A DNA stretch of 42,767 nt from Nitrososphaerota archaeon (GTDB taxonomy: Archaea; Thermoproteota; Nitrososphaeria; Nitrososphaerales; Gagatemarchaeaceae). The DNA lies in contig JAPCJK010000006.1 in NCBI GenBank assembly GCA_027886975.1, forward strand, positions 1 to 42,767, in the 5' to 3' direction. This document shows, one piece after another, positions 18,161 to 40,568 of this stretch. Each line of letters opens with the position of its first letter. Position 1 is the first letter of the stretch. A program made the translations under genes and the position numbers. The notes under the pieces were generated by a model. It did no database searches. It worked only from the letters and a program-made list of their open reading frames with translations, and was not told where the DNA came from.

Positions 18161-18163
18161 CCC

Positions 18164-19084
18164 TCAGGTCTCCCGGAAGCCGAAGAGTCCCTGGGGTCTG
18201 ATGATTAGAATGGCTATCATCAGGAGGAAAGCGAATGAAAGGCCCCAGGTGGCGTCCAGGAACAGCGTCACGTATTGCTGCACCAGCGCGACGATGTAGG
18301 AAGCCAGGATGGTTCCCTGGACGCTCCCGATTCCTCCGAAGACGACGACGATGAACGCTATGGTCAGAGGGGTCGCTCCGACCGACGGGGAAAGAAAGAC
18401 GGTGTTGGTGAGCAGGAAGCCGGCCACCGCTGCGAGCGCCGACCCGAGTCCGAAAGCCAGAAGATAGATTGTATCCGTGTTGATGCCTACAAGGCTGGCG
18501 GCGTCCAGGTCTTGCGCCACCGCTCTCATGCCGATCCCCCACCTTGAGCGTTTGAGGAAGACCTGCAAAAGCACGAGAACCCCGATGGCAACGGCAAACT
18601 GCACAAGCTCAGCGTAGGTGATGATCAGCCCACCGTACCGGATGTCTCCATTCGCGATTTCACTCGCGAACTGGACCCTGGCGCCGCCGAAGATCAGGGT
18701 GGCGATGCTTTCGAACATGGTGGCCAAGGCCAGCGTGACGACGAGCGTGGTGATCAGAGGATTCGGCTTCCGGATAAGCGGTCGTATCAGAAACCTCTGA
18801 GTCCCCACCCCGATGACGAAGATGACAAGTACTGCCGGGACGACTGCCAGAGCCAGGGGGACGGAGAGCCCCGAAGTCGGAAGGCTTGATCCGTAGAGCG
18901 CGCTCGAGGGCGTATTCAGCCACCATACGATATAGGCACCCGCCATGAAGAAGGCACCATGCGCAAAGTTGAGCACCCTGATAGTTGAGTAGATGAGGGT
19001 GAGGCCCATGGCCATGAGCGCGTAGAGGGAGCCGAGGATTATTCCGCTAAGAAGAGGAGGGAGAAGAAGTGAGCTGTCAACCAA
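18164..19084 (-). CDS. livH: Branched-chain amino acid-type ABC transporter permease (LivH-like)
   Basis: 306 residues, eight or so helices. The LivH signature is clear: SGIILGSLYALMAMGLTLIY at the N-terminus, VLNFAHGAFFMAGAYI next, the coupling helix RSRWGIGMRAVAQDLDAASLVGI, and IVVVFGGIGSVQGTILASYI near the end. It pairs with LivM-like 17177-18160 to form the permease of a HAAT importer. It lies 15 bp downstream of the livF gene on the same strand. Confidence 0.92.
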   Translation of the reverse strand: MVDSSLLLPPLLSGIILGSLYALMAMGLTLIYSTIRVLNFAHGAFFMAGAYIVWWLNTPSSALYGSSLPTSGLSVPLALAVVPAVLVIFVIGVGTQRFLIRPLIRKPNPLITTLVVTLALATMFESIATLIFGGARVQFASEIANGDIRYGGLIITYAELVQFAVAIGVLVLLQVFLKRSRWGIGMRAVAQDLDAASLVGINTDTIYLLAFGLGSALAAVAGFLLTNTVFLSPSVGATPLTIAFIVVVFGGIGSVQGTILASYIVALVQQYVTLFLDATWGLSFAFLLMIAILIIRPQGLFGFRET

Positions 19085-19099
19085 CCGAGGACGACCGCC

Positions 19100-19804
19100 C
19101 TATCCTCCTAGATAAGCCTGCATCACTTCCTTGCTATCGAGGACTTCCTTCGCGCCTCCCTGCATCCTGACCTCGCCATTCTCGATCAGGTAAATCCGGT
19201 CTGCATCGGCTATCCTCCTGGGGCTCTGCTCGACAATCAGGACTCCAACCCCAGTCTTTCTGATCTCCGCGATTTTCTTGTAGACCTCGTCAATCAGAAT
19301 CGGGGCAAGACCCGCGGACGGCTCGTCGACCATTAGCAGCTTTACGTTCTCCGCCATCAGGCCCCTCGCTATCGCGACGGACTGCCTTTCTCCGCCGCTG
19401 AGGGTGAGCGCAAGCTGGCCTTTCCTTTCGGCTACGGCCGGGAAGAGCTGATAGACTTTCTCCAGGTTCTTTTGCCTCGTGCGCCAGGACGTCCTGGGGA
19501 ACGCGCCGGCAGCCAGGTTGTCTTGGACAGTCATCTGAGGAAAGAGCCTGGCTCCTTCAGGGACATGTATGAGGCCCTTCTGAGCTATCTTGTACGGCGC
19601 CTGTCCGGTCACGTCCTCGCCATCGAGTGTGACCTTACCTACCCACGGCTTTAGGAGCCCTGAAGCCGTCCTGAGGATTGTCGTCTTGCCGTGCCCGTTG
19701 GCCCCGATCACAGCGACATATTCTCCGGCCTTGACCTCGAGGTTTATTCCCCTCAGGACTTCGACCTGGCCATAGCCGACATGGACATTCTCAAGGACCA
19801 GCAA
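19100..19804 (-). CDS. livF: Branched-chain amino acid-type ABC transporter ATP-binding protein (LivF-like)
   Basis: 234 residues. Walker A is GANGHGKTT, the signature is LSGGERQSVAIARGL, and Walker B is LLMVDEPSAGLAP, with the SAGLAP variant typical of LivF. The N-terminus LENVHVGYGQVEVLRGINL also matches LivF. It hydrolyses ATP together with the LivG-like subunit to drive uptake. It is tightly packed between livG (11-bp gap) and livH. Confidence 0.93.
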   Translation of the reverse strand: MLVLENVHVGYGQVEVLRGINLEVKAGEYVAVIGANGHGKTTILRTASGLLKPWVGKVTLDGEDVTGQAPYKIAQKGLIHVPEGARLFPQMTVQDNLAAGAFPRTSWRTRQKNLEKVYQLFPAVAERKGQLALTLSGGERQSVAIARGLMAENVKLLMVDEPSAGLAPILIDEVYKKIAEIRKTGVGVLIVEQSPRRIADADRIYLIENGEVRMQGGAKEVLDSKEVMQAYLGG

Positions 19805-19815
19805 GTTCGCGGCTC

Positions 19816-20535
19816 CTAGAAGTACCCCTCTCCGAGGTAGACCTTGACGACCTGAACGTTCTTCGAGACTTCAGGGGGCGACCCCTCGGCGATTTTTTCG
19901 CCCTTGTGCATCACAATGGTCCTGTCCGCCAAGGAAAAGATCGCCCTGATGTTGTGCTCTATTATCATGACGGTGATTCCTGATTCCCTGATCTTGGTGA
20001 CCATCCCGAGTTCCTCTTTTACCTCCTGGTTGTTCAGGCCCGCGAGCGGCTCGTCAAGCATCATGAGCTTGGGCTTTATGGCCATGGCCGAGGCCATCAT
20101 CAGCCTCTTTTTTCCGTAGATGTCCAGACGGTCGGCCGGCGTCTTGGCCTTGTCTGAGAGTCCGACGAAGGCAAGGCTTTCCGAGGCAGTCGCCGAGGGG
20201 TCGTGGGAGTTCCTTCCCCCGAACTGGGCGGCCAGGCGGACCTGCTCCTCGACGGTCATGGACTTGAAGTAAGCAGGGACCTGAAAGGTCCTCGCGAGAC
20301 CTAGGTGGGCAATCCTGTGGGACGGGAGCTTGTCGATTCTGTGCCCATCAAAGTTCACAGTGCCATCATCCGGGTTCAGGACCTTCGAAATGACGTTGAA
20401 GAGGGTGGTCTTCCCCGATCCGTTGGGACCAACGACCGCCAGTATCTCCTTCTCCTTTACATCGAAACTGAGTCCGGCGACGGCCTTCAGCGAACCGAAG
20501 CTCTTGCTGAGATTAAGCGTTTCGAGAATCGCCAA
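19816..20535 (-). CDS. livG: Branched-chain amino acid-type ABC transporter ATP-binding protein (LivG-like)
   Basis: 239 residues. Walker A is GPNGSGKTTLFNVIS (the LFNVI extension is typical of LivG), with the HRIAHLGLARTFQVPAYF Q-loop region, Walker B LMMLDEPLAGLNNQE and H-loop IEHNIRAI. The signature motif is unusual: IYGKKRLMMASAMA replaces the usual LSxGxQR..EIARAL, a pattern seen in some LivG relatives. The start is TTG 20535, and a TATA box lies about 36 bp upstream (20567-20576). It is therefore the first gene of a livGFHM transcript separate from the binding-protein gene. Confidence 0.9.
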   Translation of the reverse strand: MAILETLNLSKSFGSLKAVAGLSFDVKEKEILAVVGPNGSGKTTLFNVISKVLNPDDGTVNFDGHRIDKLPSHRIAHLGLARTFQVPAYFKSMTVEEQVRLAAQFGGRNSHDPSATASESLAFVGLSDKAKTPADRLDIYGKKRLMMASAMAIKPKLMMLDEPLAGLNNQEVKEELGMVTKIRESGITVMIIEHNIRAIFSLADRTIVMHKGEKIAEGSPPEVSKNVQVVKVYLGEGYF

Positions 20536-20566
20536 CTATCGACGCTCCTTGTCCCCGAGCCCCCGC

Positions 20567-20576
20567 GCTATATAAC
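20567..20576 (-). promoter_or_regulatory. TATA box of the livGFHM unit
   Basis: Plus-strand GCTATATAAC (minus GTTATATAGC), about 36 bp before TTG 20535. It lies between the binding-protein stop and livG, so the importer core has its own promoter. Confidence 0.6.
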
Positions 20577-20665
20577 TCGTGAAATTTTCAGGGGCTCTTC
20601 ATCCAAGGTCATCTGGACATCGCGTGGCCTTCGCTGGTAATGTAGTCTCGCGCGAACCTGTCGCG

Positions 20666-22516
20666 CTACGGCGTGATGTGGGACTTCGTGGCGGCGCTGA
20701 CGTTGGCGAAGTAGGCAGGCTCTTCGAAGGTCTCGTCGGCGAAGTTTGGCGTTGCGCCGTCGGTCGACCACGCGAACTGTCCGCTCGTGTAGTAGGCCTT
20801 CGGGTCGTCCTTCATCACCTCTTGCATCAGCGGGCTCCAGTAGACATCGGACGTCTCCTGGAATCCAGTCTTGGCGATAACATCCGGGTCGAAGAAGAAA
20901 CTGGAAGCCCTTTCGCTCCCGATGAGTATGCGGGTCGGTTGGTTTCCTGGCCTTGTGTATGGCTTCGGTATCGTCCGGTCGCCGTCCGCAGGCGGACTCT
21001 CTCCGATCCTGCTCTTGACCTGGTATGTCACAACTGGTCCTCCAACGGGCATGTCTAAGTTGAACTTCTCGAATGGCCAGACCCTGACACACTGGCCGGG
21101 GCGCATCGACCACGGTCCCCCCAGGCCTACCGTAACGTAGTCGGAGTGTCCCGTGTCGACGCTGCTGTTGAGGATTGCAGACATCCTGCGAGCTTGGTCT
21201 CCGGCGAAACCTCCCGCCATCGTGCCTACCGTCAAGCTGTTCCAGGCGAAGTCTTGCGACTGAGCTGAGTCAGCCAGGGCCGGTGCGCTGTTGAACTTCG
21301 CCCAGTAGTGAGCTTCGTAGTCGTATCCTCTCGAATTCCTCAGCAGGCCCCTGCATTCGTGGAACAGGGCCCCGACGGAATTCTGGCCCGCGAGCGGAAG
21401 GAAGTCAGGCAGCGACGGGCCGTACTGGAAGAAGACCAGCGAGGGGAGCGGGTCCGCCATGAACTGCTTGAGGAATGCCGCCTCGTCCGAAGGGGCGAAG
21501 TCCGTGATGAATATGAGGTCCGGAGGATCGTTCTTCAGTTGGGCAAGGATCGTACCATACTCGACTGTACCAAGAGCAACTTGCTGTCTGAAGTTCAGCT
21601 TCCCACCGGCCTTGGACATCAGCACCTCGAAGGTGTGCCCTATTCTCGTGCCGTAGGCACCCGCCGATTCGAACACCGCATATTTCTTGTTGATCGGCTT
21701 GTGCTTTCCATGATCAATCCAACCCTGATAGTTCATGAAGAGGTTTCTCGAGTAGTCCTCGTCGTGTACCACACCCATGAAGACGTTCCAGTATGGATGC
21801 GTCGGATAGGCAGTCGACCCGACCTTCTGGTTATAGCTCGGAAAGCCGTTGTAGGTCTTCCAGGTGATGTCGCTGGTAGCCGGATACGTTCCGGCCCAGG
21901 TACCGTTCAACAGAACGTTCTTCTCGTGTAGGCCAGAAATGTCATGGTTGATGTAATAGTGATCGTACTTCGCAGCCGTCGGCTCCTCTGTCGCATCCAC
22001 AGTAACATAGTCGGTCAGGATGAAGTCGACGTTGTCCTGGGAGAAGAGCTTCGTGACCGCGGCGCTCGCTTCCTGGGTATTCTTGTTGGGGACGTCGATG
22101 TTGATGAACTTGTAGCTGGGTGCTCCGTTCGGAAGCGAACCGAAGATTGCCACCCAGTCGTCGAAAGCCATCGAACTCGACTTTATCCCTGAGAGGCCGT
22201 CTCCCGCAAAGAGGCCCGTCTCTGGGAACGCAGAGCCCACCACCAACTGCTTGCCGAAATTCGGGTTAGTGTTTGTGGCCGTGGTGCCGACAGTCGTTGT
22301 TTCAGTTGTTACCCCCGGGGAAACACTAGGAGAGCGGAGTATGTACCCACCAGCAAACCCAGCTGCACCGAAGACGACCGCGCCACCGACCAACCCCTTG
22401 ATGAAGTCTCTCCGTCCCGAATCCATTCCTCCGCCGCCAGTGCCTGTCTGATTGAGTATTGATTTCTTAGAAACGTTCTGCGCGTCAGTCGGCGGCTCGG
22501 CGCCGTCAGACTCCAT
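20666..22516 (-). CDS. Tat-exported ABC substrate-binding protein (type I periplasmic-binding fold)
   Basis: 616 residues, considerably longer than usual LivJ/LivK proteins (about 370-420). After a 30-residue polar N-terminal extension comes a twin-arginine signal, SGRRDFIKGLVGGAVVFGAA (Arg35-Arg36), then a Thr-rich linker and the mature domain starting KQLVVGSAFPETGLFAGDGL. The middle and C-terminal parts are unusually long and carry no lipobox that I can see, so anchoring may rely on the uncleaved signal. The ATG 22516 start is fixed by a TATA box 29 bp upstream. It lies upstream of livGFHM on the same strand and should deliver the importer's substrate; the substrate is not determined. A palindrome covers its transcription start. 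Confidence 0.88.
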   Translation of the reverse strand: MESDGAEPPTDAQNVSKKSILNQTGTGGGGMDSGRRDFIKGLVGGAVVFGAAGFAGGYILRSPSVSPGVTTETTTVGTTATNTNPNFGKQLVVGSAFPETGLFAGDGLSGIKSSSMAFDDWVAIFGSLPNGAPSYKFINIDVPNKNTQEASAAVTKLFSQDNVDFILTDYVTVDATEEPTAAKYDHYYINHDISGLHEKNVLLNGTWAGTYPATSDITWKTYNGFPSYNQKVGSTAYPTHPYWNVFMGVVHDEDYSRNLFMNYQGWIDHGKHKPINKKYAVFESAGAYGTRIGHTFEVLMSKAGGKLNFRQQVALGTVEYGTILAQLKNDPPDLIFITDFAPSDEAAFLKQFMADPLPSLVFFQYGPSLPDFLPLAGQNSVGALFHECRGLLRNSRGYDYEAHYWAKFNSAPALADSAQSQDFAWNSLTVGTMAGGFAGDQARRMSAILNSSVDTGHSDYVTVGLGGPWSMRPGQCVRVWPFEKFNLDMPVGGPVVTYQVKSRIGESPPADGDRTIPKPYTRPGNQPTRILIGSERASSFFFDPDVIAKTGFQETSDVYWSPLMQEVMKDDPKAYYTSGQFAWSTDGATPNFADETFEEPAYFANVSAATKSHITP

Positions 22517-28279: not shown

Positions 28280-29641
28280 CTAGTCTTTGACCTGGGCCTG
28301 AAGTTCAGGGAGCTTGCTGTCCAGGTAAGTGGTGTCAAACTTGCCGGCTAAAAAGTCCTGATTGTTGAAAATCACCCTTTGGAGCGGGATCGACGTCTTC
28401 ACACCTTCGACGACGAACTTAGAGAGTGAGTCCTTCATCACATTGATGGCTTCCCGCCTGGACCCCCCCCAAGTGATCACTTTCGCGATGAGCGGGTCAT
28501 AGTAGAACGGCACCTTCGTCCCTACCTCGAGCGCATGATCCACCCTGACGCCGTCCCCAGAAGGGATCTGAAGCCCTGTTATCGTCCCCGGCGAGGGGAG
28601 GAACGTCCTGGGGTCCTCGGCGTAAACCCGCGCCTCAATGGAGCTCCCTCTGTGGGCGACACGTTCCTGGTCTATCTGAAGGCCCTCGCCGCTGGCTATC
28701 CTGAGCTGCTGCTCGACGATGTCTATACTGGTGGTCATCTCGGTCACGGGGTGCTCGACCTGCAGCCTTTTGTTAATCTCCAGGAAGTAGAGGTTCCCGC
28801 TCGATTCTTCGAGGAGGAATTCGAAGGTCCCGGCGTTGCCATACCCTGTCACCCTGGCCATTTCCACCGCAGTCCTGAGCAGATTGACCCTCTGCTTTTC
28901 GTCGAGGGCGGGCGACGGGGTCTCTTCGACGACCTTCTGGAACCTCCGCTGCAGCGAGCACTCTCTTTCGAAGAGGTGTATGACCTTCCCGTCAGAGTCG
29001 GCCAGTATCTGGACCTCAACGTGCCTGGGCCTGTCGAGTATCTTTTCCGCGTAAACATCCCCGTTGCCGAAATAAAGCTTCGATTCTCTGGATGCAGCCT
29101 GAAGGTACTCGGCCGCCTTGACGGGTTCGGTCAGCTTCCTCGTTCCCTTCCCCCCTCCGCCTGCGTCTGGCTTGATCAGAACGGGCCCGTACTCCTCAAG
29201 GAGTTTCACGAGGTCGGCAGGGTCCTTCAGGGGCTCGTAGGCGCCGGGTATCGTCGGAATCCCATGCTCTTTCGCCCTTCTCCTGGAGTAGGTCTTTGAC
29301 TCGATCCTGGCCATGACCTCCGGCCTTGGGCCCACCCATCTCGCTCCAGCCTTCTCGACCGCCTCTGCGAACTGATGGAACTCAGAGAGGAAGCCGTACC
29401 CTGGATGGACGGCGTCCGCACCCACCTTGCCGATGGCGTCGCAGATGTTCGGGATGGAAAGATAGCTTTCGAGAGGAGGAGACTTTCCGACCCTGATGGA
29501 TTCGTCCGCCTTCTTGACGTGAACAGCGTCGGCGTCAGCGTCAGAGTAAATCGCGACGGTCTTGACCCCGAGGCGCCTGCACGTCCGCATGACCCTCACT
29601 GCAATCTCGCCTCGGTTGGCGACGAGGACCTTCGAGAACAT
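28280..29641 (-). CDS. Biotin carboxylase subunit
   Basis: 453 residues in the biotin carboxylase layout: N-terminal VLVANRGEIAVRVMRTCRRLG, ADAVHPGYGFLSE, ATP-grasp KPDAGGGGKGTRKL, the FERECSLQRRFQKVVEETPSP motif, and EINKRLQVEHPVTEM. It carboxylates a biotin carrier using ATP and bicarbonate. A carrier gene and a PxpC gene lie immediately upstream on the same strand, but no acetyl- or propionyl-CoA carboxyltransferase is in the window. It is therefore more likely the biotin carboxylase of a 5-oxoprolinase/urea-carboxylase-like system than of acetyl-CoA carboxylase; a CoA carboxyltransferase elsewhere is the alternative. Confidence 0.9.
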   Translation of the reverse strand: MFSKVLVANRGEIAVRVMRTCRRLGVKTVAIYSDADADAVHVKKADESIRVGKSPPLESYLSIPNICDAIGKVGADAVHPGYGFLSEFHQFAEAVEKAGARWVGPRPEVMARIESKTYSRRRAKEHGIPTIPGAYEPLKDPADLVKLLEEYGPVLIKPDAGGGGKGTRKLTEPVKAAEYLQAASRESKLYFGNGDVYAEKILDRPRHVEVQILADSDGKVIHLFERECSLQRRFQKVVEETPSPALDEKQRVNLLRTAVEMARVTGYGNAGTFEFLLEESSGNLYFLEINKRLQVEHPVTEMTTSIDIVEQQLRIASGEGLQIDQERVAHRGSSIEARVYAEDPRTFLPSPGTITGLQIPSGDGVRVDHALEVGTKVPFYYDPLIAKVITWGGSRREAINVMKDSLSKFVVEGVKTSIPLQRVIFNNQDFLAGKFDTTYLDSKLPELQAQVKD

Positions 29642-29655
29642 GGCGGGTGCTGACT

Positions 29656-29877
29656 CTAGGATTCGATCTCGACGAGAACCTGGCCGATGTTCACTTCGTC
29701 GTCCTTCTTGACGTGGACCTTGTTGACCTTTCCTGCCACGTCTGTCGTGATAGAGATCTCTGTCTTCATCGACTGGACCACCACGACCGCTTCCCCGGCC
29801 TGGACTGACTGGCCCTCGGTCACGTTAACCTGCACCACGAGCCCCGCCGTCGGGGCTACTACATCGGTCGAAGGCAC
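29656..29877 (-). CDS. Biotin carboxyl carrier protein (biotinyl domain)
   Basis: 73 residues, one biotinyl domain: VVAPTAGLVVQVNVTEGQSV, then VQSMKTEISI with the predicted biotinylated Lys38, then VNKVHVKKDDEVNIGQVLVEIES. The usual AMKM motif is SMKT here. It is only a domain, without the N-terminal part of bacterial AccB. The start is GTG 29877, three bases from the PxpC stop; it is followed by the biotin carboxylase gene after 14 bp. All three are therefore one operon. BioY (8642) could supply the biotin. Confidence 0.88.
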   Translation of the reverse strand: MPSTDVVAPTAGLVVQVNVTEGQSVQAGEAVVVVQSMKTEISITTDVAGKVNKVHVKKDDEVNIGQVLVEIES

Positions 29878-29880
29878 CTC

Positions 29881-30882
29881 CTATTTCACTCCCGTCTCCA
29901 AGTTCTTTTCGAGCTTTCTGCGCAGCTCGATGGCCTCGTCATACGAGACTTTCTTGAACTTGACCTGGTCCCGCCCTGGGGCGGCCTGCCCCACCTTCCA
30001 CAGAGACCCGGTCACCACGCAGCACAGGCACACGAACCCTCCCGCCGACGGGCCGTCCCTCATCAAGATGATGGGCTGGTCCCCGCTGACGTTGACCGAC
30101 CCCACGGTGTAGCCGTTGTCGATGATGTTCGAGGGGTGCTTCCCGGCCACGCCGCCGTCAGACCTAGCCCACTTCCACTGGCGGGGGGTCAGCCTGTAGC
30201 CGAGCCTGTTCGCGTTCCTGTCAATCTTGTGGACCTCAGAGAAGAACGCAGCAAGGTCTTCCTCTTTGATGAACTCAGGGGCCGCCTGCGGTCCTACTGT
30301 GGCCTCGACCTCGAGAGTCTGGTTGAATCTGGGAACGGCATTTTCGACGACCTTCCTTCCTATGAGTCCAGCTTTCTCCTGCTCGCTTTTGCCAATCTCC
30401 AGCTCGTCTCCGGCCTTGAGGGCCCTGCCCTGGAAACCGCCGAACCCTCCTGCGGCGAAGGTCGACTTGCTGCCCAGGTAATCGGGGACTTGTATCCCCC
30501 CGGCGACCGCGACGTAGGCCCTGAAACCTGAGGTCTTCGCGATCCCGAGGGTCAGGTCCTCCCCCTGTTTGACAAGGAAGCTCTCCCACATAGGGACTTG
30601 TTTCCCGCCCATGGTCGACTGCATCTCCGCCCCCGTGACGGCAACCACGAGGTCGGTCTTCGCCCTCATGGAAAACAGTCCAGCAGCCACCTCGAGTGCA
30701 GCGTCGCCAGGCCGGTTTCCTACCAGCCGATTGGCGAGCCTGAAACTGTAGTCGTCCAGGGGACCGGATGGCGGGATGCCGATATCCCAGTAGCCTAGAC
30801 GCCCAGGATAATCTTGGACAGTTGCCTCAACGCCCCCCTTCAGGACCTCCAGAGAAGGCGCTTGGGTGCCCTGAATCGTCAA
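29881..30882 (-). CDS. pxpC: 5-oxoprolinase subunit PxpC / biotin-dependent carboxyltransferase family
   Basis: 333 residues of the AHS2/PxpC (YbgK-type) domain: GVEATVQDYPGRLGYWDIGI at the start, PPSGPLDDYSFRLANRLVGN, a central AVAGGIQVPDYLGSKSTF and GGFQGRALKAGDEL, and the C-terminal NIIDNGYTVGSVNVSGDQP. The same fold forms the carboxyltransferase part of urea carboxylase and is a subunit of bacterial 5-oxoprolinase, which opens 5-oxoproline (pyroglutamate) to glutamate with ATP. PxpA and PxpB are encoded at 37.4-39.1 kb. The start is TTG 30882, about 28 bp from a TATA-like GGTTTATC. It heads a pxpC-carrier-biotin carboxylase operon. Confidence 0.88.
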   Translation of the reverse strand: MTIQGTQAPSLEVLKGGVEATVQDYPGRLGYWDIGIPPSGPLDDYSFRLANRLVGNRPGDAALEVAAGLFSMRAKTDLVVAVTGAEMQSTMGGKQVPMWESFLVKQGEDLTLGIAKTSGFRAYVAVAGGIQVPDYLGSKSTFAAGGFGGFQGRALKAGDELEIGKSEQEKAGLIGRKVVENAVPRFNQTLEVEATVGPQAAPEFIKEEDLAAFFSEVHKIDRNANRLGYRLTPRQWKWARSDGGVAGKHPSNIIDNGYTVGSVNVSGDQPIILMRDGPSAGGFVCLCCVVTGSLWKVGQAAPGRDQVKFKKVSYDEAIELRRKLEKNLETGVK

Positions 30883-32027: not shown

Positions 32028-33497
32028 GTGAAGGTACCTTCACAGATGTTCATCGGCGGAAGATGGGTGGACTCAGAAGACGCCGCTACCCTGGACGTCG
32101 TGAACCCTGCGAACCAGGAGGTCCTTGCCCGGATTCCAAAGGCCTCGAGAGAAGACGCGAGGAAAGCGATCGACGCCGCGTCGGAGGCAGCGCGAGTCGC
32201 TGCGAAACTCCCTGCGCACGAGCGTTCGAGGATTCTCCTCAAGGTAGCGTCGATGCTCGAACAGAATTCTCAGGAGATGGTCGAGACCATAGCAAAGAAC
32301 GTTGGCAAGCCTGTTGCCGACGCGGCGGTGGAGACAGCCAGGGCAGTCCTTGTTCTGACCTTTGCGGCAGAGGAGGCCAAGAGGATTACAGGGCAGACGA
32401 TCCCGCTGGACTCGCAGCCCTTCCCGCCGGGCAACCAGAACAGGCTCGCCTTCACCATCAGGGAGCCTGTCGGAGTCGTCGGTGCGATTTCTCCGTTCAA
32501 CTTCCCGCTGAACCTCTTGATGCACAAGGTCGCGCCCGCCATCGCAGCGGGAAACTCCGTCGTCGCGAAGCCGCCTAGCGAAGGACCACTCCCCGCCCTC
32601 ATGATTGCAAAACTGTTCGAACAGGCAGGCCTTCCCGACGGGGTTCTCAATATCGTCGTCGGCCCGGGAGAAACAGTCGGGGATGAAATCGTCATCAGCG
32701 AGAAGGTGAACGCGATAAGCTTCACAGGAGGGAGCGAGACCGGCAAGGAGATTTCCCAGAAGGCTGCCAGGACAAACAAGAAGGTCATTCTCGAGCTGGG
32801 GGGACACAACCCGATGATCGTCCTCGACGACGCGAATCTGGAGGCGGCGGTCAGCTCCGCGGTCTCGAGCACATTCACGTTTTCAGGTCAGGTCTGCACG
32901 GCGACAAGGAGGATCATCCTCTCAGAGAAGTTGAGGAGCAAGTTCATGGCAAGCTTCGACCAGGCCGTGGCCGGCCTGAAGGTCGGCAATCCTCTGGAAC
33001 AGACCACAAACGTCGGCCCTGTAATCAGCCGCAAGAGCCTGGACAAGATCGAGGGCCTCGTAGAAGATGCGAAGTCCAAGGGAGCGGTCGCAAGGAAGGG
33101 CGGGAACAGGCTTGTTTCCGAAGAGTACTCGAGAGGGAATTACTTCGCACCCACCGTGCTCGACGAGGTCGAGGGCGACATGAAGATAGCTAACAGCGAG
33201 GTGTTCGGCCCCGTCGCTGCGGTGATGAAGGCGTCGAAGGAAGAGGAATTCGTCGATGCCGCCAACAGCACCACCTACGGTCTGCAGGCGTCGATTTACA
33301 CCTCAGACCTGGCGAAGGGAATCAAGCTGGCCAAGGAGATCAAGGCAGGGGCGGTATTGATCAACGACCGGACCACTCTGAGGTGGGACAACGCACCATT
33401 CGGGGGCGTGAAGATGAGTGGCATGGGGAGAGAAGGGGTAAGCTACGCCATTGCGGAACTGACCGACCTGAAGTTCATAGTGGTGAACCTGGGCTGA
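32028..33497 (+). CDS. NAD(P)-dependent aldehyde dehydrogenase
   Basis: 489 residues of the ALDH superfamily. The catalytic Cys290 (SGQVCTATRRI) and general base Glu256 (LELGGHNP) are both present, with the NAD-binding FTGGSETGKEI and ISPFNFPLNLLMHK segments, and the oligomerisation tail PFGGVKMSGMGREG. It oxidises an aldehyde to the acid; candidates are lactaldehyde, glyceraldehyde or semialdehydes. The start is GTG 32028 with a TATA-like element 29 bp upstream. It ends 5 bp from the convergent CitE-like gene. Its neighbours suggest a role in small-acid or amino acid catabolism. Confidence 0.92.
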   Translation: MKVPSQMFIGGRWVDSEDAATLDVVNPANQEVLARIPKASREDARKAIDAASEAARVAAKLPAHERSRILLKVASMLEQNSQEMVETIAKNVGKPVADAAVETARAVLVLTFAAEEAKRITGQTIPLDSQPFPPGNQNRLAFTIREPVGVVGAISPFNFPLNLLMHKVAPAIAAGNSVVAKPPSEGPLPALMIAKLFEQAGLPDGVLNIVVGPGETVGDEIVISEKVNAISFTGGSETGKEISQKAARTNKKVILELGGHNPMIVLDDANLEAAVSSAVSSTFTFSGQVCTATRRIILSEKLRSKFMASFDQAVAGLKVGNPLEQTTNVGPVISRKSLDKIEGLVEDAKSKGAVARKGGNRLVSEEYSRGNYFAPTVLDEVEGDMKIANSEVFGPVAAVMKASKEEEFVDAANSTTYGLQASIYTSDLAKGIKLAKEIKAGAVLINDRTTLRWDNAPFGGVKMSGMGREGVSYAIAELTDLKFIVVNLG

Positions 33498-33502: not shown

Positions 33503-34318
33503 TTAGTCCGCCGTGGAAGAATCATCGAGCATCCGCTTCGCCAACTTTCGGTGGACCTCGTCGACCAACGCCCCCTCAAGAGCGATGGCTCCTTTTCCAC
33601 TGCGGCTACTTTTGTTGTAGGCTCCGAGGACCTTTCTGGCCCATTTCAACTCCTCTCTGGATGGAGAGAAGACCCTGTTGGCGGTTCTGATCTGTGAAGG
33701 GTGTACGACCTGCTTCCCAGAGAAGCCGAGGGCACGAGCCTGCCTGGCGCTCTTCTCGAAACCCGACATGTCCTTAAGGTCAAAAAAGACGTTGTCAATG
33801 GGGTCGATGCCGGTGGACCTGGCGGCCACCACGATCTTCGTCTTCACGTAGACATTGTCGAGATACTCAGAAACCGAGCCAGCGACTGACAGGGAGAAAT
33901 CGGCCGCTCCATAGGCGACGGCATCGACGCCTCCCGAGCCCGTCACCAGGTCTATCCCTGAGAGGCCCTTCGCTGTTTCTATGATCGGAATCAGGCGTTT
34001 GCCCGTGGACCTGTGGATGGTCGAAAGGTCGCCTTCGGCTTTGGGGATGACAAAAGTGTCCAGCCTGTCGAGCGAACCAAGTCGCGCAATGTCGGCTCTA
34101 CCCTGGCGCGATGAAGGCGAGTTGATCCTTACGCACAGCTCCCTCCTTCCCCACTCGACTTCGGAAACCGATTTACTGACCAGAGCCCGGGCTTTCTCCT
34201 TCTGTCCTGCTGGGACCGCGTCCTCGAGGTCGAGAATGATCGAGTCCGCGCCGAGGAGTCTCGATTTCTGGATCATCCTTTCCATGTTGCCAGGCACAAA
34301 GAGCTGGCTCCTGCGCAA
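33503..34318 (-). CDS. HpcH/HpaI aldolase / citrate-lyase-beta (CitE-like) family lyase
   Basis: 271 residues of the CitE-like TIM-barrel family that splits malyl-CoA, beta-methylmalyl-CoA or citramalyl-CoA. The N-terminal RRSQLFVPGNMERM, metal- and CoA-binding GADSIILDLEDAVP and downstream PIIETAKGL, YGAADFS and GKQVVHPSQI are typical. An upstream TTG at 34381 would lie at the divergent MaoC start. I prefer TTG 34318 because the shared TATA element at 34341-34350 is about 28 bp upstream of it and family members begin at RRSxLFVPG. Next to a MaoC hydratase, an acyl-CoA dehydrogenase and a CoA-transferase, the best guess is citramalyl- or methylmalyl-CoA lyase. Confidence 0.85.
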   Translation of the reverse strand: MRRSQLFVPGNMERMIQKSRLLGADSIILDLEDAVPAGQKEKARALVSKSVSEVEWGRRELCVRINSPSSRQGRADIARLGSLDRLDTFVIPKAEGDLSTIHRSTGKRLIPIIETAKGLSGIDLVTGSGGVDAVAYGAADFSLSVAGSVSEYLDNVYVKTKIVVAARSTGIDPIDNVFFDLKDMSGFEKSARQARALGFSGKQVVHPSQIRTANRVFSPSREELKWARKVLGAYNKSSRSGKGAIALEGALVDEVHRKLAKRMLDDSSTAD

Positions 34319-34340
34319 GGCGGAAAGCGTTTCCCACCCT

Positions 34341-34350
34341 TGACTTAAAG
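34341..34350. promoter_or_regulatory. Apparently bidirectional TATA element
   Basis: TGACTTAAAG reads CTTAAAG on plus and CTTTAAG on minus. It is about 28 bp from TTG 34318 (lyase) and about 35 bp from ATG 34381 (MaoC), so it could drive both genes. Confidence 0.45.
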
Positions 34351-34380
34351 CATGGCCCAAGGCGGCATCTGAAGTAGGCA

Positions 34381-34881
34381 ATGACGACGCCGGAGGATAG
34401 CGGCAAGCATTTCGAAGACTTTCGGAAGGGTCAGAAGCTCGAAGGCAAAGTCGGAAGGACGATAACCGAGACTGACAACATCTGGTTCACCCTTCTGACC
34501 AACAACAGCAACCAGATTCATTTCAACGCGGACTACGCGAAGAGATACTTTCCGGGGAAGCCGTTTGAAGGCAGGATGGTAGTCAACGGTTTCTTCACCC
34601 TCGGGCTTGTGGCCGGACTCCTAGTAGACGTCACCAGCGTGAATGGTTTCATGCTCGGAATCGACAAGGTGAAGTTCCTCAAGCCGGTATTCCCGGGAGA
34701 CACACTCTACGCCCGGTGCGAAGTGGTGAGCGTGCGGCCCTCGTCGAGCCAGCCTGGCCTCGGGATCGTCGTGATTGCATGCTGGGGGCTCAACCAGCAC
34801 GGGGCCAAGGTCATCGAGTTTTCGAGGTCGTTCATGGTGAGGAAGAGGAAGGTTGTCTGGGGCAAGAAGAGAACGACTTAA
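34381..34881 (+). CDS. MaoC-family dehydratase (mesaconyl-/itaconyl-CoA hydratase type)
   Basis: 166 residues with a single hotdog fold. The signature TITETDNIWFTLLTNNSNQIHF resembles the mesaconyl/itaconyl-CoA hydratase subgroup, with Asn where classical MaoC hydratases have the catalytic Asp; His follows. Later motifs are FEGRMVVNGFFTLGLVAGLL and KVKFLKPVFPGDTLYARCEV. It hydrates an enoyl-CoA to a hydroxyacyl-CoA. It starts at ATG 34381, and its end overlaps the acyl-CoA dehydrogenase start by 29 bp. With the divergent lyase it would give a hydration-then-cleavage sequence; the exact C5 substrate is inferred. Confidence 0.85.
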   Translation: MTTPEDSGKHFEDFRKGQKLEGKVGRTITETDNIWFTLLTNNSNQIHFNADYAKRYFPGKPFEGRMVVNGFFTLGLVAGLLVDVTSVNGFMLGIDKVKFLKPVFPGDTLYARCEVVSVRPSSSQPGLGIVVIACWGLNQHGAKVIEFSRSFMVRKRKVVWGKKRTT

Positions 34882-36031
34882 CGACGACCAGAGGCTGATA
34901 GTCTCCACCATAGAAGGGCTGGCCAGCAAGTTCGGAGAGAGCTACTGGCACCGCCTCGATAAGGAGGGGAATTACCCCGATGAATTCGTCGCCGAAATGG
35001 GGAGGTTGGGCATGGCCGCCCTTCCAATCCCGAAGGAATACGGAGGAGCTGGATACGGCTTGCGGGAAGCCTCACTCGTTCTGGAGGAGATAAACGCCGC
35101 AGGAGGGAACGCCCAGCCCTTCCATGGTCAATACTATCTTTCCTTCATGGTGGCCAGGTTCGCCTCGGAAAGTTGGAAGGAAAGGTACCTGCCTGGCCTG
35201 GCCAGCGGCAAGCTGAGGCTACAGACCTTCGCACTGACCGAGCCGGAAGCGGGGTCAGAGTCAACAAAAATCAAGACTTCGGCGGTGAAAAAGAACGGCA
35301 AGTATCTGATCCGCGGACACAAGATCTTCATTTCAAGGCTCGAGCATACGGACCTGGCCGTCCTTGCCGCCAGGACAACTCCCCTGAAGGACGCTGCGAG
35401 AAAGACCGAGGGCATCTCCCTGTTCCTTGTTGAAGTGAAAGCCTCGAAGGGGCTGGACATCCGCAAGATAGAGACCATGTTCAACAGTCAGACATACGAG
35501 GTGTTCATTGATGGTCTTGAAGTCCCCGAAGAGAACCTGATAGGCGAGGAGGGCCAAGGATTCAGGTACATTCTCGGGGTGCTCAACCCGGAAAGGATAC
35601 TGCTCGCCTCGGAATGCATAGGAGATGCCCGGTGGTTCATACAGAAGAGCGTGGCCTATGCCAACACCAGGGTCGTCTTTGACAGAAAGATCGGGAGCAA
35701 CCAGGGGGTCCAGTTCCCGATAGCGGATACCTACGCGAAGATGATTGCGGCGGAGAAGGTCAGGTGGAGCGCGGCTGAGATGTACGACGATGGGGCCGAA
35801 GACAAATCCGTGGGGGAGCTCGCCAACATCTCAAAGTACCTGGCTTCCGAATGCTCATGGCAGGCGGCGAACGTCGCGATGGACGTGTATGGAGGGTCCG
35901 GCCTGGCGACTGCGAACCACATCGAAAGGAAATTCAGGGAGGCCCGACTTTACAGGGTCGCCCCGGTTCCTCAGAACCTTGTCCTCGCGTATATAGCGCA
36001 GAGCGTCCTCGGGCTCCCCAGGTCGTACTAG
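34853..36031 (+). CDS. Acyl-CoA dehydrogenase
   Basis: 392 residues in the standard ACAD layout: N-terminal helical part (MAALPIPKEYGGAGYGL), central beta domain (FALTEPEAGSESTKIKTSAV), C-terminal helical domain (MDVYGGSGLATANHIERKFR). At the position of the catalytic Glu in SCAD/MCAD (IYEGT) the sequence reads VAPVPQN, so the base must lie elsewhere or differ. The tail LGLPRSY is typical of a subfamily found in C5-dicarboxylate clusters. The TTG start overlaps the MaoC end, and the CoA-transferase start overlaps its stop, showing tight coupling. Oxidation of a methylsuccinyl- or related CoA is a plausible role. Confidence 0.86.
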   Translation: MSGARRERLNDDQRLIVSTIEGLASKFGESYWHRLDKEGNYPDEFVAEMGRLGMAALPIPKEYGGAGYGLREASLVLEEINAAGGNAQPFHGQYYLSFMVARFASESWKERYLPGLASGKLRLQTFALTEPEAGSESTKIKTSAVKKNGKYLIRGHKIFISRLEHTDLAVLAARTTPLKDAARKTEGISLFLVEVKASKGLDIRKIETMFNSQTYEVFIDGLEVPEENLIGEEGQGFRYILGVLNPERILLASECIGDARWFIQKSVAYANTRVVFDRKIGSNQGVQFPIADTYAKMIAAEKVRWSAAEMYDDGAEDKSVGELANISKYLASECSWQAANVAMDVYGGSGLATANHIERKFREARLYRVAPVPQNLVLAYIAQSVLGLPRSY

Positions 36032-37299
36032 TGCCGCCGGGGAGAAAGGCTCCGAAATTGACAGGGGATGGACCGTTGGATGGAATCACGGTCCTGGACT
36101 TTACGACCAACGTTTCAGGCCCCGTCGCCACCCATGTCCTCTCGAGCCTGGGCGCTGCCGTGTGGAAGGTGGAACGACCTGACGGCGGGGACGATGCTAG
36201 GCAGATGGCACCGGTCGTTGGAGGGGATTCTGCCTACTTCATTGCAATAAACTCGTCAAAAAAGTCCGTTGCCCTGAACCTTGGGGAACCAAGGGCGAAG
36301 GAAGTCGTCGAGAAATTGGTGCGGCGCGCGGACGTCCTCGTCGAAAATTATCGCCCGGGCGTGGCGGACAGGCTCGGGGTGGGGTGGAGTGCAATGACGT
36401 CGATTAATGACAGGCTCGTATACGCTTCGATTTCGGGATACGGGGGGAAGGGACCGGACGGATTCCGGGCAGGATATGACGCACTCCTGCAGGCAAGGAC
36501 TGGACTCCTCTCGGTGACCGGGCATCCGAGGCAGGCGCCCGCCCGAATAGGAGTCTCGATTCTCGACGTTAGTTCTGGCGTTTGGACCGCCCTCGGCATA
36601 GTGACCGCCCTCATGGACCGGGATAGAACGAAGAAAGGAAGTCGCATATCGACGTCGTTGCTTGAAAACGGAGTCTTCCTCTTCGGCTATCATCTTCTTT
36701 CCTACCAGTTGACGGGACGGCTTCCAGGCGCCTACGGGACGGAACACCCTGCCTTCAGCCCCTACGGTTATTTTGCGACCGCCAGGAGTGATGGAATCTT
36801 CATCGGGGTATCCAACGACAGGCAGTTCGCAAGGCTCTGCATTTGCCTGGGCCACGGGGAATGGGCCGTCGACCCAAGGTATATGACGAACGTTGGAAGA
36901 GTCAAGAATCGGGAAAGGTTGCATGGATTGCTCGAGTCGGCACTGCGCGGGCATGATGCGGCTTGGTGGGAGAGTAAGCTGACTGATTCTGACGTCCCAG
37001 TCTCTCTTCTCCAGAACGCCCGGGACGTCCTGAACGATGTCCAGGCGGAACCTCTATCGTTGTTCCAAAAGGTCGAAGGGCCAGCAGGGCGTCTTCTTAG
37101 CGTCCCACGGATTCCGATGCGTTTTTCGGGGATTCCTTCCCCGAACGCAACATCCCGCCCGCCTCGCCTAGGGCAACACACCCGAGAGGTTTTGCTTTCT
37201 GTGGGTTTCACCGGGAGCCAGCTCGAGAAACTCGAACGGATTGGCGTAATTGCACAGTACTCGAAGAAGGAGAGGCTTGGCAGAAAGCGCTCTGGATGA
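36031..37299 (+). CDS. Class III (CaiB/BaiF) CoA-transferase
   Basis: 422 residues of the formyl-CoA transferase family. N-terminal LDGITVLDFTTNVSGPVATH and LGAAVWKVERPDGGDDAR, the central GYDALLQARTGLLSVTG with catalytic Asp150, and RIGVSILDVSSGVWTALGI are all canonical. It moves CoA between organic acids. The GTG 36031 start shares one base with the acyl-CoA dehydrogenase stop (TAGTG); a longer open frame upstream lies inside that gene and is not real. In bacterial itaconate clusters the same family makes itaconyl-CoA from succinyl-CoA; mesaconyl-CoA isomerisation is an alternative. Confidence 0.9.
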   Translation: MPPGRKAPKLTGDGPLDGITVLDFTTNVSGPVATHVLSSLGAAVWKVERPDGGDDARQMAPVVGGDSAYFIAINSSKKSVALNLGEPRAKEVVEKLVRRADVLVENYRPGVADRLGVGWSAMTSINDRLVYASISGYGGKGPDGFRAGYDALLQARTGLLSVTGHPRQAPARIGVSILDVSSGVWTALGIVTALMDRDRTKKGSRISTSLLENGVFLFGYHLLSYQLTGRLPGAYGTEHPAFSPYGYFATARSDGIFIGVSNDRQFARLCICLGHGEWAVDPRYMTNVGRVKNRERLHGLLESALRGHDAAWWESKLTDSDVPVSLLQNARDVLNDVQAEPLSLFQKVEGPAGRLLSVPRIPMRFSGIPSPNATSRPPRLGQHTREVLLSVGFTGSQLEKLERIGVIAQYSKKERLGRKRSG

Positions 37300-37357: not shown

Positions 37358-38128
37358 TTGCCGAAAAAAATAGACATCAACTGCGACATGGGGGAGAGCT
37401 TCGGGAATTTCAAGGTCGGCAATGACGAGGCTGTGATGCCATACATCACCTCGGCCAACGTGGGTTGCGGTTTCCACGGCGGGGATCCCGTGACCATGGG
37501 AAGGACGGTTGCGCTCGCCAAACAGAATGGAGTAGGAGTCGGTTCTCATCCGGCTCTGCCTGACTTGATGGGCTTCGGCAGGAGAGAAATGAAAATCACG
37601 ACCGAGGAGGCGAGGGCATACCTGCTTTACCAGACGGGCGCGCTCAAGGCATTCTTGGAGACTCAAGGAATGAAGCTCCAACATGTCAAGCCTCATGGTG
37701 CATTTTATACGGTGCTGATGAAGAACGAGGATCTCACTCGCTCAGCCGCCGGGGCAATCCTCGACCTGGACAAGAACCTCTACTGGTTCATGCCTGTTCC
37801 AAACAAATCTGCCGAAGTGGCCTCGTCCCTGGGCGTGAAGGTCGTGGGAGAGATGTACGTCGACATGGACTACTCCCCCGACGGGAGCCTGGTCGTCAGA
37901 AGAGAGCAGTTCGCCCACCAGCTGGACCCGATGAGCACGGCGGAAAAGGTGATCAGGTTCCTGGACACAGGAAAGGTTAGGACGACGGAAGGAACAGAGA
38001 TAGAGATCGAGGCGAAGAGTATCTGCGTCCACGGCGACACGAGGAACGCGGCGGACTCCCTTCGGGCGATCCGAGGGGAGCTCAAGGAGCATGGAGTCGA
38101 AGTGACGTCGATCAAGAACATCGCCTGA
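37358..38128 (+). CDS. pxpA: 5-oxoprolinase subunit PxpA (LamB/YcsF family)
   Basis: 256 residues of the LamB/YcsF family. DINCDMGESFG at the start, SANVGCGFHGGDPVTM, GVGSHPALPDLMGFGRR and HVKPHGAFY are all present, giving the expected metal-binding and active-site residues of this polysaccharide-deacetylase-like fold. With PxpB and PxpC it forms ATP-dependent 5-oxoprolinase, turning 5-oxoproline to glutamate. The start is TTG 37358; a TATA-like TAAATAATA lies about 30 bp upstream. PxpB follows on the same strand after 49 bp; PxpC is at 29.9-30.9 kb on the other strand. Confidence 0.92.
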   Translation: MPKKIDINCDMGESFGNFKVGNDEAVMPYITSANVGCGFHGGDPVTMGRTVALAKQNGVGVGSHPALPDLMGFGRREMKITTEEARAYLLYQTGALKAFLETQGMKLQHVKPHGAFYTVLMKNEDLTRSAAGAILDLDKNLYWFMPVPNKSAEVASSLGVKVVGEMYVDMDYSPDGSLVVRREQFAHQLDPMSTAEKVIRFLDTGKVRTTEGTEIEIEAKSICVHGDTRNAADSLRAIRGELKEHGVEVTSIKNIA

Positions 38129-38177: not shown

Positions 38178-39146
38178 GTGCAAGTGGAATCCGAGTCTCT
38201 GATCGAGGCAGTCCCTGGAACAAACGAGAGACCGAGCGTCACCTACCGTTTCTCGGGGGACGAGTACATCCTCGTAGAGATAGGGGACATGAGCACCGAC
38301 TTCTTCTACAACCTTCGCGCCATGGCCCTCGGAGAGCAGGCCAGGAAGATTCCCGGGGTGATCGAGACGGTTCCAGCGATGAGGTCCCTCGTGGTCCACT
38401 TCGATTCGTTGAAGATCGGAGTACGAGAGCTGGTCGCGAAACTGAAGGAGATAGAGGGAGGAATAAGGAGCATCGGGGACCTCGTGATACCCTCGCGGCT
38501 CCTGAGGCTCCCGGTCGCCTACAGAGACAAATACACGACCGAGTTCATCGCAAGGTACGCGAAGCTGATCCGGACTGATGCGCCGAATATCGTTAACGGC
38601 CACAACCTGGAGTATGTCGCGAAGTACAATGGCCTCACAGTGGAACAGACCATCGGTCTGATAGAGTCGACTCAGTATTGGGTCGCCATGCTGGGCTTCT
38701 GGCCGGGCCTCGCCTTCATGACACCACTCGACCCGCGCGCCTACCTCACGGCTCCCAAGTACAACCCGACGCGCCCCTGGACGCCGGAGGGGGCCTTCGG
38801 TATTGGAGGGCCCATCGTGGCGATCTACCCCATTGAGTCGCCAGGGGGCTATCAGCTGCTCGGCAGGTCTATTCCCATTTATGACTTGAAGCAAAGAAAC
38901 CCGGTTTTCAGGAAGAATCCTGTTCTCCTTCAACCCGCTGACCGTCTCGAATGGGAGACGGTGACAGACAGTGAGCTGGAGGAGATAAGGAAGGAAGTCT
39001 TCGACGGCACCTACAGGTACAAGGTCTATCCTTACGAGTCCTTCAGTGTCAAGAAGTACTTGGAGTTCCTTGAGGACACGAAGGAGGAGGCGGAGGCCTT
39101 CGCCAAGCAGACTGAGGAAGCGAGGAAAGGAATCCCCTTCCCTTAG
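38178..39146 (+). CDS. pxpB: 5-oxoprolinase subunit PxpB / carboxyltransferase subunit 1 (KipI-like), C-terminally extended
   Basis: 322 residues, about 80-100 longer than usual PxpB. The AHS1/KipI core is present: FDSLKIGVRELVAKLKEIE, then LPVAYRDKYTTEFIARYA, MLGFWPGLAFMTPLD, and IYPIESPGGYQLLGR. The core corresponds to the N-terminal half of the urea-carboxylase carboxyltransferase and pairs with PxpC-type proteins. The C-terminal extension after about residue 255 is charged and helical and is not usual for PxpB. It lies directly downstream of pxpA. GTG 38178 is chosen by the TATA element 31 bp upstream. The pairing with PxpC is inferred from family knowledge. Confidence 0.85.
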   Translation: MQVESESLIEAVPGTNERPSVTYRFSGDEYILVEIGDMSTDFFYNLRAMALGEQARKIPGVIETVPAMRSLVVHFDSLKIGVRELVAKLKEIEGGIRSIGDLVIPSRLLRLPVAYRDKYTTEFIARYAKLIRTDAPNIVNGHNLEYVAKYNGLTVEQTIGLIESTQYWVAMLGFWPGLAFMTPLDPRAYLTAPKYNPTRPWTPEGAFGIGGPIVAIYPIESPGGYQLLGRSIPIYDLKQRNPVFRKNPVLLQPADRLEWETVTDSELEEIRKEVFDGTYRYKVYPYESFSVKKYLEFLEDTKEEAEAFAKQTEEARKGIPFP

Positions 39147-39188: not shown

Positions 39189-40568
39189 TTGGCGAACCTG
39201 GCTCAACTCAGCTTCCAACGGGCCCCCCTCATTCTTACGGAGATTCCGGGGCCGAAATCCAGGAAGGCCTACGAAAGGCAGTCCCGTTTCGAAACCCAGT
39301 CCAGAGTCTACTCTAACTACTTTCCCATAGCCATCGAGCAGGCAAGAGGCTCGACGGTAAAGGACGTCGACGGGAATGTCTACGTGGACTGGTACATCGG
39401 CGTCTGCGTCCAGAACTTGGGTCACGCTCATCCAGTCGTCGTCGAAGCGATCAAAAGGCAGATGGAGCAGATAATCCATAGCATCGACCTCCCTTTCGAA
39501 GCTAGGTTAGAATTCGTCGAGGGCCTGGTTGGCACCCTTCCTGGCGACCTAAGAAACGACGCCAAGGTGCTTTTCACAGTAACGGGAGCCGACGCATGCG
39601 AGGCAGGAGTGAGCCTAGCGAGGAAGGTCACGGGCAGAAAGGCGATAGTCGCCTTCGGGGGAGCCTACCACGGGATACACGGCGCCATCGTGGGCGCCAC
39701 CGCCGACTATCATTACAGGGACTACGCGGGAGTTCCGGCGTACGAGACCTACCACATACCCTATCCCTACCGGTACAGGTTTCCTTTCAAGTCGAAGGAA
39801 GGGGAAGAGAGCGGCGCGGTGATAGACTACCTTGAGTACATGATCAAAGACAGTCACTCGGGGGTCGGCCCCCTTGCCGGGATTATCGTGGAACCCATTC
39901 AAGGTGAGGGGGGTTACATAGTCCCCCCGGACGACTTCCTGCCAATGCTCGCCGAAGTGGCGCAGAAGCACTCCATCCCTCTGATCGTCGACGAAATCCA
40001 GACGGGCGTCGGAAGGACGGGCAAGATGTGGGCATCCGAATGGGCAAGGATCGACCCCGACATCGTCTGCATCTCGAAAAGCATAGGAGGCGGTGTTCCC
40101 CTTTCAATGATAGCTTACAGACCCGAGTATGACGACCTGCCTTCGGGGTTCCACCTGGGGACCTATCGAGGAAACGCCCTCGGCATTGCGGCGGGGAACG
40201 CCGTCCTCAAGTTCCTGGGGTCGACAGGCGTCCTAGAGAGGGTCAGGAAAGACGGCGAAGTTGTAAAGAAAAGGTTCGAGGAAATCTGTGAAGGAAACCC
40301 CATGGTAGGCGAAGTCAGAGGGAAGGGCTTCATGGTCGGCATAGAGCTGGTGAACGACAAGAACTCAAGGACTCCCGCCACAAAGCTCGCTTCCGACCTG
40401 AGGACGGAAATGCTTCGCCGCGGGCTTCTAATGCACACCTGCGGCCACTTCGGCAACGTCCTCAGGTTCATGGCTCCTCTCACCATCGAAGACCCGCTGC
40501 TGGATGCGGGTTTTGCAGTCTTCGAAGACTCGCTGAATGCCCTTACGAACCGTTCTAAGTTAGGATGA
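39189..40568 (+). CDS. Class III PLP-dependent aminotransferase (or archaeal amino acid racemase relative)
   Basis: 459 residues of the class III aminotransferase fold (acetylornithine/4-aminobutyrate group). The N-terminal LTEIPGPKSRKAYERQSR and the VDWYIGVCVQNLGHAHPVVV region are typical, with VDEIQTGVGRTGKMWASEW and the PLP Lys297 (CISKSIGGGVPLS). The PGPKS N-terminus also occurs in archaeal amino acid racemases (Pyrococcus broad-range type), so transamination of GABA/ornithine or racemisation are both possible. The start is TTG 39189 with a TATA-like TTTAATC upstream. Placed after pxpB, it could act on glutamate-derived compounds. Confidence 0.85.
   Translation: MANLAQLSFQRAPLILTEIPGPKSRKAYERQSRFETQSRVYSNYFPIAIEQARGSTVKDVDGNVYVDWYIGVCVQNLGHAHPVVVEAIKRQMEQIIHSIDLPFEARLEFVEGLVGTLPGDLRNDAKVLFTVTGADACEAGVSLARKVTGRKAIVAFGGAYHGIHGAIVGATADYHYRDYAGVPAYETYHIPYPYRYRFPFKSKEGEESGAVIDYLEYMIKDSHSGVGPLAGIIVEPIQGEGGYIVPPDDFLPMLAEVAQKHSIPLIVDEIQTGVGRTGKMWASEWARIDPDIVCISKSIGGGVPLSMIAYRPEYDDLPSGFHLGTYRGNALGIAAGNAVLKFLGSTGVLERVRKDGEVVKKRFEEICEGNPMVGEVRGKGFMVGIELVNDKNSRTPATKLASDLRTEMLRRGLLMHTCGHFGNVLRFMAPLTIEDPLLDAGFAVFEDSLNALTNRSKLG

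Follow-up and report, generated by a model that had tools for sequence, protein, structure and literature searches.

Among the closest described systems to the locus analyzed here are two bacterial gene clusters that have been called convergent (PMC12290011). The cluster of Pseudomonas aeruginosa and Cupriavidus necator encodes Ict, Ich, Ccl, a methylsuccinyl-C4-coenzyme A (CoA) dehydrogenase and a methylsuccinate isomerase, and its dehydrogenase PA0879 and the C. necator ortholog were shown to be (RS)-methylsuccinyl-C4-CoA dehydrogenases (PMC12290011), while the rip operon of Yersinia encodes RipA, RipB and RipC. A C5-dicarboxyl-CoA chemistry with a CaiB transferase (Mct), a MaoC hydratase (Mch) and a CitE-like lyase (Mcl) is also used in the haloarchaeal methylaspartate cycle. 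Here we describe a four-gene cluster at positions 33503 to 37299 of the window, the whole analyzed stretch of 42,767 nucleotides (contig JAPCJK010000006.1) from a Nitrososphaerota archaeon. We read the cluster as a module for the aerobic catabolism of a branched C5 dicarboxylic acid, methylsuccinate being the likeliest candidate, and put the probability of this reading at about two in three. Judged by its gene families it would work like the Pseudomonas cluster, although only one of the four enzymes, the acyl-CoA dehydrogenase (ACAD), is an ortholog and the remaining three belong to different branches within their families. In the literature open to searching, which does not include subscription papers, no itaconate or methylsuccinate cluster from an archaeon was found to be described; this does not prove that no archaeal example has been published.

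Like the P. aeruginosa and C. necator cluster, the window carries the same four families side by side, including an ACAD that shares both the clade and the relocated glutamate, whereas its CaiB is not an Ict, its lyase is CLYBL/Mcl-like, its hydratase is RipB-like, an isomerase is missing and the host is an archaeon. The likeness to the itaconate cluster of P. aeruginosa proposed by the sequence-only reading thus holds for the families and the orthologous ACAD and not for the lyase and the CaiB, which are no orthologs of Ccl and Ict. The label of an itaconate cluster is better replaced by methylsuccinate-type because the ACAD is of the methylsuccinyl-C4-CoA dehydrogenase type, as has been argued for Pseudomonas (PMC12290011). 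The window hydratase is nearest to the RipB/Ich model and has the Asn-His pair of P. caribensis RipB, while RipA is a family I CoA-transferase instead of a CaiB, RipC belongs to another lyase clade and the rip operon has no ACAD. The methylaspartate cycle differs by its C1-thioesters, its two-domain Mch, its products glyoxylate and propionyl-CoA and the absence of an ACAD of the window's family. On plasmid pAA2-2c of Thermus thermophilus and a plasmid of Deinococcus sp. QL22, an ACAD, a CaiB, a single-domain MaoC (49-50% identical) and a CitE lie together as in the window, in Deinococcus also with PxpA and an aldehyde dehydrogenase (ALDH); these clusters differ in having Ict-clade CaiBs and an added mesaconase candidate (Thermus) or a thiamine pyrophosphate (TPP) enzyme and PrpD (Deinococcus). 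If our reading is true, the pathway would have been assembled independently for a third time in these archaea, in addition to the Pseudomonas and Yersinia types, around one conserved dehydrogenase.

The four families named earlier for this interval agree with both the open reading frames (ORFs) and the profile matches. The CitE/CLYBL-type C-C lyase (HpcH_HpaI), a predicted (S)-citramalyl-CoA lyase, occupies 33503-34381 on the reverse strand, with candidate TTG starts at 34381, 34360 or 34318, and because of its strand it is a divergent neighbour outside the operon formed by the other genes. On the forward strand follow a MaoC hydratase of RipB/Ich type (34381-34881), predicted to act on mesaconyl-C4-CoA (itaconyl-CoA), an ACAD of the PA0879 family (34853-36031), predicted to be a methylsuccinyl-C4-CoA dehydrogenase, and a class III (CaiB/BaiF) CoA-transferase (36031-37299; PF02515, 361 bits), the predicted activator of the free dicarboxylate. 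These three genes form one overlapping operon, as had been noticed before: the MaoC and ACAD genes share about 29 bp when TTG 34853 is taken as the ACAD start, and for CaiB the start GTG 36031, which overlaps the ACAD stop by one base (TAGTG), is preferred to the first ATG of the ORF at 35851.

The dehydrogenase and its relocated glutamate

Over 375 aa the window ACAD shares 51% identity with the ACAD of a plasmid-borne copy of the P. aeruginosa itaconate cluster, which by its gene order and cluster is taken to be of PA0879 type, and both enzymes fall into one clade of 58 sequences with full support (100/100). The earlier remark that the usual catalytic glutamate is lacking was correct as to the position, which holds Pro371 (ORF numbering); this is no anomaly but a family signature common to PA0879-type enzymes. 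The glutamate is found on helix G instead (E247), where it aligns with E254 (in LDLER) of human isovaleryl-CoA dehydrogenase (1ivh). Proline at the usual site together with the helix-G glutamate (LN[AP]ER) was observed in 98 of 98 ACADs of the family and in none of 10 paralogs, and a degenerate or inactive enzyme was ruled out by E247, by the 1ivh alignment and by this signature. In isovaleryl-CoA dehydrogenase the shifted glutamate leaves space for an acyl chain branched at the beta position (PMC5798300). Methylsuccinyl-C4-CoA differs from isovaleryl-CoA only by a carboxyl in place of one methyl, so the helix-G geometry would fit it. Residues invariant only in the family include H91, Q124 and R162, the last replacing the Asn of the canonical ITN motif; our guess is that R162 binds the free carboxylate of the substrate. 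The relocated catalytic glutamate is thereby tied to an entire enzyme family, and candidate methylsuccinyl-C4-CoA dehydrogenases can be picked out in genomes by the motif LN[AP]ER combined with AP[IV] close to the C terminus.

Partner enzymes and recurrence of the module

The MaoC hydratase is a single-domain protein of 166 aa with NF038241 (RipB_Ich) as its best NCBIfam model (133 bits, under the cut-off of 340) and 57 bits to the model of the haloarchaeal two-domain Mch; a PDB search also matched the mesaconyl-CoA hydratase Mch, and no BLAST match to PA0878 (275 aa) was obtained at E≤1e-3. Asn42...His47 replaces the canonical R-hydratase Asp...His pair, a replacement shared with Mch (domain 2) and P. 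caribensis RipB, and among the aligned MaoC sequences the Asp was clearly kept only in the copy of G163.

The best PDB match of the window lyase is human CLYBL (161 bits), and the catalytic residues R85, E135 and D161 and the lid residue D274 are all present, corresponding to the Arg, Glu, Asp and lid Asp of CLYBL. The lyases of the archaeal modules form their own clade (100/99) within a group of 13 sequences holding both CLYBL and malyl-CoA lyases (96/93), outside the RipC clade. Human CLYBL, a neighbour in the tree, and Mycobacterium tuberculosis Rv2498c share with the window lyase the catalytic residues and a methyl-contacting valine. To our knowledge, neither of the two is encoded with a set of CoA-transferase, ACAD and hydratase. 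This valine, V181 of Rv2498c, contacts the methyl group of citramalyl-CoA (PMC6689899). Val likewise stands at this position in the window lyase, in CLYBL and in the Ccl of Pseudomonas, and Pro occupies it in both Mcls. Because the malyl-CoA lyase of Rhodobacter sphaeroides can itself form citramalyl-CoA (PMC3832036), the substrate of the lyase is not fixed by sequence alone. Nearly all ammonia-oxidising relatives (L007-L032) carry one CitE/CLYBL-like gene with Ile at the methyl-contact position; these genes form a separate clade, so the window lyase is not their ortholog, and they are candidates, worth testing, for a citramalyl-CoA lyase that clears itaconyl-CoA.

The CaiB falls into a clade of seven sequences (97/94), the other six of which come from Bacillota, Rokubacteria, Actinomycetota, an alphaproteobacterium and the archaeon G406 and are each encoded no more than a few kb from an ACAD belonging to the family of the window ACAD; its exact position is uncertain because several branches of this clade are long. 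The best models were CoA:oxalate and succinate-glutarate CoA-transferases, all under cut-off. The transferase partner varies among archaeal clusters: G020, G261 and G258 share one type of CaiB, the window has a different one, and G163 instead carries a succinate CoA-transferase of family I. Such exchangeable transferases on one core suggest that CoA transfer serves to activate a free acid.

ACADs of this kind were detected in only 11 of 400 class-level genomes. Ten archaeal ACAD loci were compared, namely the window, eight of those 11 and a metagenome-assembled genome (MAG) labelled 'Euryarchaeota archaeon EA_12', and nine of them have CitE near the ACAD and eight have MaoC there; the possibility raised earlier that relatives of the genes do not co-occur is thus contradicted. 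The ACAD-MaoC-CitE module occurs in several families of non-ammonia-oxidising Nitrososphaeria and in one other archaeal MAG. The overlap of MaoC and ACAD genes is also present in G386, G020 and G406, and in G386 the genes for ALDH, CitE, MaoC, ACAD and CT_C_D are ordered as in the window. Within 6 kb of the ACAD in 80 named genome loci, CaiB was counted in 62, MaoC in 41, CitE in 33 and the PrpD family in 29, and these counts are lower bounds because some contigs are short. A class I fumarase joins the module in Thermus and some Bacillota as a mesaconase candidate, mesaconate hydration by such fumarases being known (PMC5592240). A Halalkalicoccus plasmid (L069) was found to carry TcuA, PrpF, a RipB-like MaoC, a CaiB, a CitE, an LLM oxidoreductase and a related ACAD (45% to the PA0879 type) at a short distance from one another.

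Predicted pathway and competing explanations

In the proposed pathway, the CaiB would transfer CoA, probably from succinyl-CoA, to the free acid to give the C4-thioester, and the ACAD, with flavin adenine dinucleotide as cofactor, would oxidize methylsuccinyl-C4-CoA to mesaconyl-C4-CoA, its helix-G base providing room for the beta-branched acyl group and its electrons passing to the electron transfer flavoprotein (ETF). The MaoC would then add water to mesaconyl-C4-CoA to give (S)-citramalyl-CoA, which the CLYBL-like lyase would cleave to pyruvate and acetyl-CoA. ETF genes at two loci and an ETF-quinone oxidoreductase-like protein are present in the host genome. We infer the identity of the substrate, the CoA donor, the stereochemistry and the physiological direction; methylsuccinate is the more likely entry substrate compared with itaconate, and itaconate or mesaconyl-C4-CoA could enter downstream of it. 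The C5-dicarboxylate chemistry proposed by the sequence-only reading is supported by the ACAD family, the RipB/Ich-like MaoC and the conserved linkage, while of the two product routes it offered, pyruvate plus acetyl-CoA is favoured and glyoxylate plus propionyl-CoA less so.

Several observations weigh against this assignment to methylsuccinate. None of the four proteins reached an NCBIfam equivalog cut-off. The CaiB lies outside the Ict clade (28 sequences, 100/99), by which an identity as Ict is ruled out, and the G386 cluster has no CaiB. The lyase falls on the CLYBL/Mcl side of the tree and outside the Pseudomonas Ccl clade, so that of the phylogenetic placement suggested beforehand, against both Ccl and Mcl, orthology with Ccl did not hold. 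RipC, itself a citramalyl-CoA lyase, also has Pro at the methyl-contact position, and because of this the Val of the window lyase lends little weight. MaoC was found apart from the ACAD in some relatives. No methylsuccinate isomerase (MmgE/PrpD) is encoded in the cluster, and the only MmgE/PrpD of the host genome, on contig C102, is 26% identical to the isomerase; there (L178, 6049-10388) the PrpD-family gene is divergent from an ACAD-ETF operon.

The same four steps could act on another dicarboxylate: on succinate, through fumaryl-CoA and malyl-CoA, on glutarate, or on some other substituted succinate. The under-cut-off models of the CaiB and the difference in CoA-transferase between clusters are compatible with this, but the helix-G glutamate suits a beta-branched acyl group (PMC5798300) and genes for C5-specific enzymes show strong linkage to the ACAD family, and we consider such a substrate unlikely.

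The strongest rival that can be named is a leucine-type route, in which the ACAD would act on isovaleryl- or 3-methylglutaryl-CoA, the MaoC would form (R)-3-hydroxy-3-methylglutaryl-CoA ((R)-HMG-CoA) and the lyase would release acetoacetate and acetyl-CoA, as Rv2498c does in M. tuberculosis. It owes this rank to Rv2498c being both a citramalyl-CoA and an (R)-HMG-CoA lyase (PMC6689899), and the helix-G glutamate as in isovaleryl-CoA dehydrogenase and the LIV-type (branched-chain amino acid family) transporters beside many archaeal copies point the same way. However, the studied members of the PA0879 family use methylsuccinyl-C4-CoA (PMC12290011), isovaleryl-CoA made from an oxo-acid needs no CoA-transferase, and in bacteria the clusters go together with Ict and methylsuccinate isomerase. 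The only Carboxyl_trans protein of the genome also belongs to an operon resembling acetyl-CoA/propionyl-CoA carboxylase, leaving no dedicated methylcrotonyl-CoA carboxylase, and the route is judged improbable.

Mch/Mcl-type chemistry, with the lyase acting on beta-methylmalyl-CoA, is known from haloarchaea (PMC5592240) and would agree with the grouping of the lyase with Mcl as well as CLYBL and with the PDB match of the MaoC to Mch. It appears quite improbable, since PA0879-type ACADs yield mesaconyl-C4-CoA (PMC12290011), the hydratase is of the short RipB type and not a two-domain Mch (57 against 133 bits), and the lyase carries Val and not the Pro of Mcl. An accidental or misassembled joining of unrelated metabolic genes, to which the absence of the module from most same-genus genomes might point, is extremely improbable: the genes overlap, the contig composition fits the bin, and chance is excluded because distant archaea, whose GC contents span 36 to 64%, have the same set of genes.

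Host genome and neighbouring genes

The host genome bin has 2.05 Mb and is 94.8% complete, the window being one of its contigs. GC content and tetranucleotide use of the contig agree with those of four other contigs of the bin, and the window Acs is 70% identical to the Acs of same-genus genomes; on these grounds misbinning of the contig is unlikely and was rejected. The archaeal host stated before was upheld, and its relatives at class level include ammonia oxidisers. Among relatives of the same order, archaeal AmoA is confined to four other families, and none was detected in the window's family (10 genomes), so the host probably belongs among the heterotrophic, non-ammonia-oxidising Nitrososphaeria of soil type. 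If the methylsuccinate reading is true, heterotrophic Nitrososphaeria, which are frequent in acid soils and difficult to cultivate, would use methylsuccinate-type acids, and a concrete substrate would be at hand to try in their enrichment. A divergent thermosome-like protein, at most 37% identical to same-genus copies, is encoded at 15412-17199 and is the third chaperonin of the host genome; this copy gave no information on the question of misbinning.

The genes around the module hint that a semialdehyde feeds it, with a lactam or an amino acid as the possible origin. An ALDH (32028-33497, forward strand; PF00171), which might perform a semialdehyde-to-dicarboxylate step, is 76% identical and syntenic in G386. 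Downstream on the forward strand lie a PxpA of the LamB/YcsF family (37358-38128; NF003814 above cut-off), a possible partner in lactam or amide opening, a PxpB/urea-carboxylase-type carboxyltransferase (CT_C_D, 38178-39146; PF02682), 83.5% identical and syntenic in G386, and a class III aminotransferase (39189-40568; PF00202), a possible source of the semialdehyde. The reverse strand carries a PxpC/urea-carboxylase-type carboxyltransferase (CT_A_B, 29881-30882; PF02626, with TIGR00724 above cut-off), a biotin carboxyl carrier protein of 73 aa (29656-29877), read from the sequence by its SMKTE motif, and a biotin carboxylase (28280-29641), 43% identical to the corresponding part of pyruvate carboxylase. 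The last three proteins together with CT_C_D and PxpA resemble a biotin-dependent 5-oxoprolinase or urea-carboxylase-like enzyme split around the module. In the cluster of Deinococcus QL22 a PxpA gene immediately precedes that of the ACAD, and an ALDH adjoins the same module in Deinococcus and Bosea plasmids.

One pathway, itself undescribed, would have the PxpABC-like proteins open a methylated lactam or related amide, the aminotransferase and ALDH convert the omega-amino acid so formed to methylsuccinate, and the module yield pyruvate and acetyl-CoA. Its probability is low because the aminotransferase is unlinked in G386 and G325, the only genomes of the family with orthologs, where it lies elsewhere. 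Bosea and several Burkholderiales carry a TPP enzyme pair and an ALDH beside the same enzymes. In the bacterial loci L064, L068, L093 and L138, an ALDH and a pair resembling a split TPP-dependent 2-oxoacid decarboxylase adjoin the module, which suggests an upstream route there from a 2-oxo-acid through a semialdehyde to the dicarboxylate, the 2-oxo-acid being, as a guess, 4-methyl-2-oxoglutarate.

A LIV-type ATP-binding cassette (ABC) transporter adjoins the archaeal module in L046, L049, L050, L052, L053 and L071, and an oxalate/lactate-type carrier of the major facilitator superfamily stands beside it in the same loci except L071; both are possible carriers of the C5 acid. The window has its own LIV-type ABC transporter at 17177-22516, with an unusually long putative substrate-binding protein (616 aa), and an equivalence with the transporters of the other modules was not supported, LivH being only 33% and LivG 36% identical and the substrate-binding protein having no match. 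An amidase/formamidase-like gene was located at 7518-8519, and together with this transporter it perhaps serves amide uptake.

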